This document shows, one piece after another, positions 48,367 through 51,617 of a stretch of 64,000 nucleotides of DNA. The DNA is taken from positions 1-64,000 of the forward strand of contig CACJQX010000001.1 of the NCBI GenBank assembly GCA_902595595.1. The letters run 5' to 3'. The translations under genes and the position numbers were made by a program. Origin of the DNA: an uncultured Pelagibacteraceae bacterium (GTDB taxonomy: Bacteria > Pseudomonadota > Alphaproteobacteria > Pelagibacterales > Pelagibacteraceae). Positions within the stretch are counted from its first letter, which is position 1; each line of letters begins with the position of its first letter. The notes beneath the pieces are model-generated. The model was not told the origin of the DNA and made no database searches. It saw nothing but the letters and a program-made list of their open reading frames with translations.

Positions 48367-48689
48367 CATATATCGTCAACGACAATTGTATTAAATGCAA
48401 ACTAACAGACTGTGTTGATGTCTGCCCAGTTGATTGCTTTTACGAAGGTAAAAATATGCTTGTAATTAAACCCGATGAGTGTATAGATTGTGGCGTTTGC
48501 GAGCCAGAATGTCCTGTCGATGCCATAAAAGCAGACACCGAACCTGGAAGTGAAAAATGGTTAGAGATCAATAAAAAATATTCTGAAATCTGGCCTAACA
48601 TAAGTGAAAAAAAAGATCCACCAGCGGATCACGAGAAATTTAAAAATGAGCAAAATAAGTACGAAAAATATTTTAAAGAAAATCTTTAA
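48363..48689 (+). CDS. fdxA: 7Fe/8Fe ferredoxin
   Basis: [29 protein letters not shown]...[17 protein letters not shown]. Confidence 0.96.
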
Positions 48690-49533
48690 AGGCAAAACAG
48701 ACAAAAAAGTGAAAAAAAAAGTTTCTAAAAAGAAGGTTGTAAAAGCTAAAAAAGTTAAAAAAGCTAAAAAAATAATTTCAAAAAAAATCAAAAAAGTTGT
48801 TAAAAAAGTTACACCTAAATTAAATAAAGCAAAAAAAGCTGTTAAAATTACAGAAACGAAAGCTGAACCTAAAGTAGATAATTTAAGAATTTCAAAAACA
48901 AATGAAGTTAAACCTGAAATAAAAAAAGTTCAGAAACAAGAAACCGAAAAAAGAGAATACAAAATTAAAGATCATGTTGTTTATCCTAAACATGGGGTGG
49001 GACAAATTACTGAATTTAAAAAAATCAACATTGGTGGAATTGATGTTGAAACGTATATTATTAAATTTGAAAAAGACAAAGCTAATGGAATGGTCCCTGT
49101 AAACAAGCAGTCTCACTTAAGACCGTTAGCCACTATTAATCAAGTTAACAAGTGTATTTCAATATTAAAAAGTAAACCAAAGATTAAAAGATCAATGTGG
49201 AGTAGAAGAGCACAAGAATACGAAGCTAAAATATCTTCTGGCAAAATATATGAATTAGCCGAAGTTGTCAGAGATTTAAACAAGGGTGATGACCTTATGG
49301 TTGATCAGTCTTATAGTGAAAGACAACTATTTGAAAAAGCTTATGAAAGAATTCTGTCCGAATTTCAGATTGTTTTGAATGTATCATTAGAAGATACTCA
49401 AAAAAAATTGGATAAAGCACTGAAAAGAAATTTAGGTGGACAGCCCCAAGCATTACCAGCAGCAAAAACTCCAACTAGTGAAATACCTGAAGACGAACCA
49501 ATTTCTGATAACGACGAGCCGATTGACGAGTAA
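48646..49533 (+). CDS. CarD-family transcriptional regulator with Lys-rich N-terminal extension
   Basis: [47 protein letters not shown] (CarD/CdnL-TRCF domain), preceded by [23 protein letters not shown] tail. Confidence 0.9.
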
Positions 49534-49539
49534 AAAAAA

Positions 49540-49570
49540 ACGCCTCTCACACAAACTGTAATGAGAAGCG
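49540..49570. terminator. Bidirectional intrinsic terminator between carD-like gene and Lys-rich peptide gene
   Basis: ACGCcTCTCA-loop-TGAGAaGCGT flanked by A9 on the left and T6 on the right. Confidence 0.85.
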
Positions 49571-49594
49571 TTTTTTGTAAAGAATACTAAGTTA

Positions 49595-49687
49595 TTATTT
49601 TCTTCTTCTTTTTTTTGCTTTTTTCTTAGCTTTTTTCTTAGCTTTTTTCTTAGTTTTCTTTGCCGCTTTTTTTCTTTTCTTAGGCAT
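49595..49687 (-). CDS. 30-aa Lys/Arg-rich basic peptide (histone-tail-like)
   Basis: Reverse-strand MPKKRKKAAKKTKKKAKKKAKKKAKKRRRK*; SD-like GGGAG about 7 nt upstream (AAAGGGAGCTAAAGATG); ends before bidirectional terminator. Not in supplied ORF track. Confidence 0.75.
   Translation of the reverse strand: MPKKRKKAAKKTKKKAKKKAKKKAKKRRRK
49617..49652. repeat. 12-bp tandem repeat, 3 perfect copies (GCTTTTTTCTTA), in-frame within Lys-rich peptide gene
   Basis: Direct reading of sequence; unit equals four codons (K/A pattern). Confidence 0.9.
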
Positions 49688-49711
49688 CTTTAGCTCCCTT
49701 TTTTAGTTAAA

Positions 49712-49728
49712 CGAATCAAATTGATTCG
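49712..49728. promoter_or_regulatory. Palindrome CGAATCAA-A-TTGATTCG upstream of Lys-rich peptide gene, possible operator
   Basis: Perfect 8-bp arms with 1-bp centre, 24 bp upstream of the peptide start codon. Confidence 0.5.
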
Positions 49729-49886
49729 CTATTAATATATTTTTATTTTTTTCTATAAGTTATGTCAATTCTTTAATTAAAAGTTAAATTTTTTTAAAAT
49801 TATTTTTAATTTTTAATTTTATAAAACTTTTTTTTATTAATTTAGTTAATATTTATGCGGGTAATAAACAGTTTGAATTAAATAGT

Positions 49887-51617
49887 TTAATAAAGATTTT
49901 CTAGCTGATTTTTATATTTTTCTGTAACTTTTTTTCTTTTTACTTTCATTGTTGGTGTCATTAAACCATTTTCAATAGAAAAATTTTCATCTATTAATTG
50001 AATTCTTTTTATCTTCTCTAGTAAAGTTAATTTTTTATTTATTTTTTCAATTACTTTATTTATTTTTTCTTTTTCATTTAAAAAATCTTTATTAGGAACA
50101 ATTAAAGCAACTAAGTAATTTTTTTTATCTCCATAAACCATGCATTGATCTATCTCTGGTTCATTTGTAATCATATTTTCAATTTTAGCAGGAGAAATGT
50201 TATCTCCACCAGCACTTACTATAATATCTTTTTTTCTATCAGTTATTTTCAAATAGCCATCATTTGGATCTATCTCTCCAATATCACCTGTATGTAGCCA
50301 TCCATTTATAATCACTTTTTCAGTTTCTTCTTTTTTATTCCAATATCCTAGCATTACATTTTCGCCTTTGACTAAAATTTCTCCATCTTCAGCAATTTTA
50401 ACTTCATTTCCTCTAAATGGAGGTCCTACAGTTTCCACTTTAATTTTATGTATTGGATTGCAACTTACTACTGGAGATGTTTCTGTTAAACCATAACCCT
50501 GAAGAGTAGGCAGCCCAACAGAATTCAAAAATTCTCCTATTCCTTTGTCTAGAGCCCCGCCACCTGAAACAAAAGCTTTCAAATTCCCACCGAACTGTTT
50601 TTTTATTTTTTTTCTAACTAATTTCTCAACTATAAAATTGAGTAATTTTTCAGAAAATGTCATTTTTTGATTTAATAGTTTTTTTCTTCCCAAACGAAGA
50701 GTTGCTTCAATTAATTTTGCTTTAAAACCTGTTTGTTTTTTTAAATTCATGTTTATTTTGTTGTAAAGGTTTTGGTAGAACCTTGGAACAGCTGTCATAA
50801 TTGTGGGTTTTGCCTCAGATATATTTTCTAAAAGTTTTTCTATTTTCTCCGCGTAAAATACTTTTGCTCCTACTGCTATCTGTGCAAATTGAACACAATG
50901 CTCATAAGAGTGTGAAAGTGGAAGCCAAGTTAAAAATACTGGTCTTGAGTTAAACAATGGTTTCATAATTTCACATGCACCTACGAGATTATTTAAGATT
51001 CCACCATGACTTAAAATTACTCCTTTAGGATTACCTCCAGTTCCGGAAGTATAAATAATACATGCAGGAGAATTTCTTTTTAATTTATTATTTTCAATTT
51101 TATCTTCTGCTAATAAATCATTTTTTATAATTGAATCAAAGTCTAAATATTTTTCTTTGTTAATTATGTTCAAGCTATTTGTTACCTTGGTTTTTTCATC
51201 CAAAGTAATAACTTTTTTGATAAAGTCTTTTTCATTAATTGAATTATTTAATTTTTTTAACATTTCGTTGTTTGAAACCACAACTAAGCTAGGCTCACAA
51301 TCTTCTATCAGGTACTTATAATCATCTTCTGTGTAGGTTGTGTATGCTGGAACTGTAATTCCACCAGCTACCATAATTGCTAAATCGGAAACAAACCACT
51401 CTGGTCTATTCTCTGAAACTAAAAGACATCTATCGCCTTCTTTTATATTTTCTTTAATAACTTTTGATAATTTTAAAATATTCTTTTCAGTTTGTTCCCA
51501 TGTGTATGTTTTTTTATTGCTTGGGTTTAGCCATTCTAAAAAAATTTCTTTTTTATTTTGTTGATTTGCTTGATTAACAAATAATTCGATTAAATTATTA
51601 AAATTATTTAAATTCAT
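49887..51617 (-). CDS. fadD: Long-chain acyl-CoA synthetase (AMP-binding)
   Basis: ACIIYTSGTGGNPKGVILSHGG; GYGLTETSPVVSCNP; GWLHTGDIGEIDPNDGYLKITDRKKDIIVSAGGDNISPAKIEN. Confidence 0.94.
   Translation of the reverse strand: MNLNNFNNLIELFVNQANQQNKKEIFLEWLNPSNKKTYTWEQTEKNILKLSKVIKENIKEGDRCLLVSENRPEWFVSDLAIMVAGGITVPAYTTYTEDDYKYLIEDCEPSLVVVSNNEMLKKLNNSINEKDFIKKVITLDEKTKVTNSLNIINKEKYLDFDSIIKNDLLAEDKIENNKLKRNSPACIIYTSGTGGNPKGVILSHGGILNNLVGACEIMKPLFNSRPVFLTWLPLSHSYEHCVQFAQIAVGAKVFYAEKIEKLLENISEAKPTIMTAVPRFYQNLYNKINMNLKKQTGFKAKLIEATLRLGRKKLLNQKMTFSEKLLNFIVEKLVRKKIKKQFGGNLKAFVSGGGALDKGIGEFLNSVGLPTLQGYGLTETSPVVSCNPIHKIKVETVGPPFRGNEVKIAEDGEILVKGENVMLGYWNKKEETEKVIINGWLHTGDIGEIDPNDGYLKITDRKKDIIVSAGGDNISPAKIENMITNEPEIDQCMVYGDKKNYLVALIVPNKDFLNEKEKINKVIEKINKKLTLLEKIKRIQLIDENFSIENGLMTPTMKVKRKKVTEKYKNQLENLY

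Follow-up and report, generated by a model that had tools for sequence, protein, structure and literature searches.

Pelagibacter genomes carry, convergent to carD, a small gene for a minimal, putatively nucleic-acid-binding peptide resembling a histone H1 tail, and the sequences compared here indicate that the start of its translation is probably blocked by a trans-acting antisense RNA, the Rfam family RF01814. The gene was studied in the window, that is, the whole 64,000-nucleotide stretch of Pelagibacteraceae DNA analysed, and in its relatives. Pelagibacter (SAR11) belongs to the most abundant free-living bacteria and has few regulators and few assigned small-RNA targets. The pairing predicted here, exact to the base pair, gives the orphan family RF01814, recognised since 2009, a putative target in trans and a reason for its conserved loop, and the peptides form an overlooked family of H1-tail-like mini-proteins across Pelagibacteraceae.

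The minus-strand ORF at 49595-49687 opens with the ATG at 49687 and codes for the 30 residues MPKKRKKAAKKTKKKAKKKAKKKAKKRRRK followed by a stop. Directly 5' of the ATG lies GGGAGCTAAAG, and on re-reading the sequence the minus-strand ORF, the GGGAG upstream of its ATG and the terminator downstream were found exactly as described in the earlier note on this DNA, which had put the Lys/Arg content at about 80%; the actual content is 22 of 30 residues (73%), and the peptide composition is K 54%, R 19% and A 18%. The ORF contains the 12-bp unit AAGAAAAAAGCT in tandem (4.3 copies with 92% match by TRF), for which an in-frame change of copy number had been suggested. Length does vary among strains (20-35 aa in Pelagibacter) and the indels are in frame, but they do not comprise only whole units of four codons. 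Past residue 2, no Pro is present in the Pelagibacter peptides. Trypsin would destroy a peptide of this composition, which would account for its absence from proteomes. Four Pelagibacter loci (L030, L032, L035 and L037) have an in-frame upstream ATG within the palindrome of the leader (MIR..REL(K)MAKRRKK), a possible alternative N-terminus of the peptide.

Judged from its sequence, the gene is a genuine monocistronic unit of about 200 nt, equipped with its own promoter, 5' hairpin, strong start site and terminator. The putative promoter (49739-49768, minus strand) comprises TTGACAT as the -35 element and a conserved A-rich -10 region, with a 10/12 consensus match. Near the inferred transcription start, the inverted repeat CGAATCA-ATT-TGATTCG (49712-49728, minus strand; -8.2 kcal/mol) probably forms the 5' hairpin of the peptide mRNA. 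Its stem is kept in the genus with a loop of varying length, and the 5' arm CGAATCA is kept family-wide, also where neither the 3' arm nor RF01814 is present (loci L149-L170). A dimer operator was also considered for this palindrome, but a spacer that varies from 4 to 7 agrees better with a 5' hairpin in the RNA. GANTC, the motif methylated by CcrM, occurs in both arms. In the sister genera g6 and g7 (L165, L168 and L169), longer AT-rich hairpins (CACTTAAAA...TTTTAAGTG) replace the 5' hairpin, and the peptide contains Pro and reaches 58 aa. The intrinsic terminator (49532-49572), with a conserved hairpin and T-run, is predicted to be usable on both strands (-17.2 kcal/mol as minus-strand RNA, -15.6 kcal/mol on the plus strand) and is common to the peptide gene and the convergent carD (48604-49533, plus strand; PF21095, E 1.9e-19; PF02559, E 1.8e-12), the synteny marker of the locus. 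A Lys/Arg attenuator leader peptide was ruled out, since transcription ends at the terminator of the peptide gene itself and the next gene downstream is a convergent one. CarD itself has a Lys-rich, H1-tail-like N-terminal extension (48646-48930, plus strand), with 38 Lys and 1 Arg in the first 95 residues counted from the ATG at 48646. Upstream, on the same strand as the peptide gene, lies a long-chain acyl-CoA ligase-like gene (49887-51617, minus strand; PF00501, E 1.2e-74).

With carD as the anchor for finding peptide loci in relatives, the gene was located at the same place, convergent to carD, in almost every Pelagibacter genome whose contig was intact, and an independent promoter-plus-hairpin pattern detected it as a single copy per genome in 170 of the 297 genomes of the order. 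The 196 Pelagibacter loci comprised 89 ORF sequences and 52 distinct peptides. Among 164 close ORF pairs, which are phylogenetically non-independent, the differences fell on codon positions 1, 2 and 3 as 29, 109 and 274, and 274 of the 412 differences were synonymous and 138 non-synonymous. Within the family, six sister genera were covered as well; there the gene was found beside carD in 21 of 22 loci, where it codes for 21 to 58 aa, and was absent beside carD from ten loci of the order's other family. The unlisted ORF is a conserved gene and not a product of chance, because SAR11 genera across the family keep its reading frame, with start and stop, at the same place, together with its leader, promoter and terminator. 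The earlier note had named conservation of merely the A/T-rich DNA as an outcome that would refute the gene; it is the reading frame itself that is conserved in relatives. The likeness to H1 tails that it proposed became much stronger with the longer sister-genus homologues, the longest of which (58 aa, genome G190; MAKKRKKAAKKKVAKKPAKRKVAKKKPAAKKRKPAAKKKAPAKKRKPAKKKTAKKRKR) contains AKKKPAAKKRKPAAKKKAPAKKRKPAKKK and the stretch AKKKPAAKKRKPAAKKKAPAKK and has a typical H1-tail composition. That first reading, of an unlisted H1-tail-like small gene with in-frame repeat variation, holds; it had missed that the leader is a perfect antisense partner of the RF01814 loop. No match in Pfam or NCBIfam was obtained for the window peptide or the 35-58 aa homologues, nor in PDB for the longer homologues, and the ribosomal mini-protein families bTHX, bS22, bL36 and eL41 were likewise without a match when the window peptide was compared with Pfam and NCBIfam and the longer homologues with Pfam, NCBIfam and PDB. 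A literature search yielded, in the papers it covered, no mention of RF01814 or "rhtB sRNA" under those strings, nor of Pelagibacter together with "lysine-rich".

Meyer et al., who first described the RNA partner, presented it as a hairpin with a bulge, located between rhtB and a gene for a hypothetical protein; they suggested a role as terminator or cis-regulatory element and named no trans target, and about half of the elements are without a U-run after the hairpin (PMC2704228), which counts against release of a free small RNA in those genomes. With membership defined as a covariance-model score above the gathering cut-off of 55 bits, RF01814 was detected in 172 of 297 Pelagibacterales genomes, all of them in Pelagibacter (g1) and scoring 63-90 bits, and in none of the other genera of the order or the 14 control genomes. 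The window's own assembly (73% complete) gave no match, so the partner is inferred from relatives; opposite the window's G at -1, its RF01814 is expected to carry a C. In 85 of 88 loci the hairpin is preceded by an extended -10 element, TGnTAnnnT, which the opposite strand has in 1 of 88; this position implies that transcription begins at the hairpin base and that the transcript includes the antisense loop. By a motif test, which could overlook some cases, a LysE-type rhtB ORF (PF01810) starts within 70 nt of RF01814 in 60 of the 88 loci. The remaining 28 keep the loop although the test detected no rhtB ORF immediately downstream, which argues that the loop is not kept for rhtB alone and that its conserved partner is the peptide mRNA. 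In the rhtB mRNAs of L145, L146 and L147 (around position 1500), the 3' stem of RF01814 holds AGGA some 11-13 nt before the rhtB ATG; the ribosome-binding site of the exporter may thus be masked by the hairpin. Divergent from RF01814 lies a gene (L145, 1598-1894) for a conserved DUF2805 protein (PF10985, E 2.6e-25).

The leader of the peptide mRNA, GGGAGCTAAA(G/A)ATG (GGGAGCTAAAGATG), is essentially invariant in Pelagibacter and variable in the sister genera: two forms account for 145 of 145 Pelagibacter leaders, versus 11 forms among 21 sister-genus leaders, the core not being conditioned on. One further match in the leader scan, GGGAGATAAAGATG, was attributed to the sister-genus genome G241, whose locus was in the scanned set. 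The Shine-Dalgarno, spacer and start codon together form the translation start region GGGAGCUAAAGAUG (49685-49698, minus strand), the predicted binding site of the RF01814 loop, and this 14-mer typically occurs in exactly two copies per genome, one at the peptide gene and the other in the RF01814 loop on the opposite strand, giving a unique antisense match per genome. A matching RNA was sought in the sister genera with a gapped leader pattern, which placed the conserved leader form at a single site per genome, the peptide gene; the other, scattered matches are individually unchecked. The window leader is not itself a member of RF01814 and represents the target sequence, its antisense match of 27 bits being below the cut-off. 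Its predicted accessibility in the full mRNA is only about 0.5, a point against the antisense reading. A SAM-II/SAM-V riboswitch was rejected as a reading of the leader motif GCUAAAG, for which there is no conserved pseudoknot partner and an Rfam match of just 13 bits. Phage-borne copies were discarded as well, as the 16 viral matches to the 16-mer GGGAGCTAAAGATGGC lay in unrelated coding regions and the CCTAAG form had no viral match.

In all 61 same-genome pairs, the RF01814 loop is complementary to the peptide mRNA from -11 to +3 (14 of 14 positions, one as G-U), with a duplex energy of -30 to -39.7 kcal/mol (mean -36) compared with -11.0 +/- 2.9 for shuffled targets. When the RNA loop of the close relative G022 was matched to both strands of the window, the leader ranked best of 11,630 positions (-36.3; next -25.6; mean -8.2). 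Codons 2-4 (CCUAAGAAA; 49676-49684, minus strand) may extend the predicted duplex partially, with mismatches. As second targets of the RNA, the sampled recurring sites with one mismatch were dismissed, being internal coding sequence (Gly-Ala-Lys-Asp-like codons) and not start regions. Among the 61 pairs, base -1 is G-C in 55 and A-U in 6, the natural forms of the pairing site being GGGAGCUAAAAAUG and CAUUUUUAGC, respectively, and base +9, the third base of codon 3, covaries as A-U in 31 and G-C in 24. A draw of 399 genomes contained the A form at true sites in 16, of which 13 carry two copies and three have one locus and no partner in either form; genomes mixing the A and G forms were not found in this draw. 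Where both loci of a two-copy genome were read, the copies are one peptide leader and one RF01814 loop; for five of the 13, the reading covers one of the two loci. Seven A-form 14-mer matches outside both loci were chance coding matches. On the carD tree, the A form needs four changes, with two independent co-changes when well-supported branches are counted and three in the best tree, all of them in one direction, and a sign test with two independent pairs is unable to reach significance. With so few independent events of covariation, the main support comes from the exact opposite-strand complementarity, the unique occurrence, the genus-level co-occurrence and the lack of any mixed genome. The Pelagibacter RNA thus shows the conserved complementarity to a ribosome-binding site and start codon, with covariation, that is expected of a trans-acting antisense repressor such as IhtA.

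In the mechanism proposed here, RF01814's own promoter would start a hairpin of about 50 nt, whose 13-nt loop would display AUCUUUAGCUCCC and pair with the Shine-Dalgarno, spacer and start codon of the peptide mRNA. Pairing over the Shine-Dalgarno and the AUG would directly block initiation by preventing 30S binding, and translation would be repressed. The peptide itself would be an intrinsically disordered polycation of minimal size, similar to the tail at the C-terminus of histone H1, most likely coating or condensing nucleic acid, the DNA of the nucleoid in the first place and RNA in the second. The scheme presumes that both RNAs are expressed, that their pairing represses and that the peptide binds DNA or RNA.

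A nucleoid, RNA or ribosome binding role might each be envisaged for the peptide, whose composition would suit DNA and RNA alike. An RNA- or ribosome-binding protein under the same antisense control, either a chaperone or annealer like FbpB or a mini-protein like eL41, bTHX or bS22, is therefore a tentative alternative to a nucleoid protein, although a rather unlikely one. The gene is core, single-copy and family-wide, as a housekeeping translation factor would be, and the antisense control could then be autoregulatory, since polycations speed RNA annealing. However, the peptide matches no ribosomal-protein or other family, and a ribosomal protein would rarely show such low complexity or a spread in length from 20 to 58 aa, both of which are common in H1 tails. 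Where rhtB follows RF01814, control might also be reciprocal between two mRNAs, pairing shutting off the peptide and opening the start site of the LysE-type exporter, whose likely ribosome-binding site AGGA lies in the hairpin stem. This extension is improbable; if true, it would link a nucleoid peptide rich in Lys and Arg to the export of basic amino acids, within a streamlined genome that has few regulators.

The coverage of a small ORF's start region by a trans antisense RNA, as in trans-encoded type I pairs, would also accord with a toxin-antitoxin-like module in which RF01814 is the RNA antitoxin of a growth-inhibitory polycation, and overproduced HctA is indeed lethal in E. coli and rescued by IhtA (PMC3469542). 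Such a module is very doubtful, as the peptide is not hydrophobic, as a type I toxin would be, its gene is a single copy at a fixed chromosomal place beside carD, no phage or mobile copies were found, and it persists in sister genera that have no RF01814, which is not readily expected of a toxin without its antitoxin. Still less probable is that the shared 14-mer does not serve pairing at all, with a common protein or ribosome-related factor recognising GGGAGCUAAAG, or with RF01814 acting solely in cis in the rhtB mRNA and matching the leader by coincidence. The original proposal of a cis-element or terminator (PMC2704228) and the frequent proximity of rhtB fit that view, but the 14-mer has opposite orientation in the two transcripts (promoters lie on the antisense strand in 85 of 88 loci), the change at -1 is compensatory, the loop is kept where rhtB is not downstream, and a chance 14-mer match should not stay in step across a genus. 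That the ORF is no gene but an A-rich repeat with a fortuitous run of Lys/Arg codons can be practically dismissed: the DNA is of low complexity, rich in AAG/AAA, and the ORF is missing from the ORF track, but promoter, Shine-Dalgarno, ATG, stop and terminator are conserved, indels are always in frame and most differences are synonymous third-position changes.

Antisense control of an H1-tail-like peptide can be compared with several known systems. In the trans-encoded type I pairs shoB/ohsC and tisB/istR, an antisense RNA acts in trans on the leader of a short ORF encoding a hydrophobic toxin. The predicted pairing resembles theirs in covering the translation start of a short ORF, whereas the Pelagibacter peptide is polycationic and retained without the RNA in sister genera. 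The bacterial H1-like Lys-rich proteins AlgP, HctB and BpH1 have a Lys/Ala(/Pro)-rich low-complexity tail with in-frame variation in repeat number. A Lys/Ala/Pro-rich tail of this kind, with repeat variation, is present in the G190 homologue; however, the Pelagibacter peptide has just 20-35 aa and matches no curated family, the Hc1, AlgP and H1-like models included. Another comparison is with the small basic proteins FbpA, FbpB and FbpC and the small RNA FsrA of Bacillus (cited in PMC2864753). In Bacillus, as in Pelagibacter by prediction, a very small basic protein is functionally linked to a small RNA, but the Bacillus proteins assist their RNA, whereas the Pelagibacter RNA is predicted to target the mRNA of the protein itself. 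The antisense partner in Pelagibacter belongs, above threshold, to Rfam RF01814 itself, which was without a trans target as described in 2009 (PMC2704228); a trans mRNA target has now been identified by prediction, which would explain the conservation of the loop. The closest likeness in action is the small RNA IhtA of Chlamydia, which acts on the start region of the hctA mRNA encoding the histone H1-like protein Hc1 (PMC4355289, PMC3469542). Both are trans-encoded antisense RNAs whose hairpin loop pairs, in Pelagibacter by prediction, with the start region of an mRNA for a small, very basic H1-like protein. The Pelagibacter pair is not a member of this system, its partner RNA being RF01814 and its peptide having no Hc1 or other Pfam match; the sequences are unrelated, and HctA is much longer (hctA ORF +1 to +378). 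IhtA consists of three stem-loops and uses about 7 nt around the start codon, the Shine-Dalgarno not being needed, whereas the Pelagibacter RNA is a single hairpin with at least 14 contiguous predicted pairs over the Shine-Dalgarno and AUG, and repression is proven in Chlamydia and predicted in Pelagibacter. The resemblance is one of mechanism, not of ancestry. The finding suggests that antisense control of this kind over an H1-like protein evolved in a free-living marine bacterium independently of its origin in Chlamydia.
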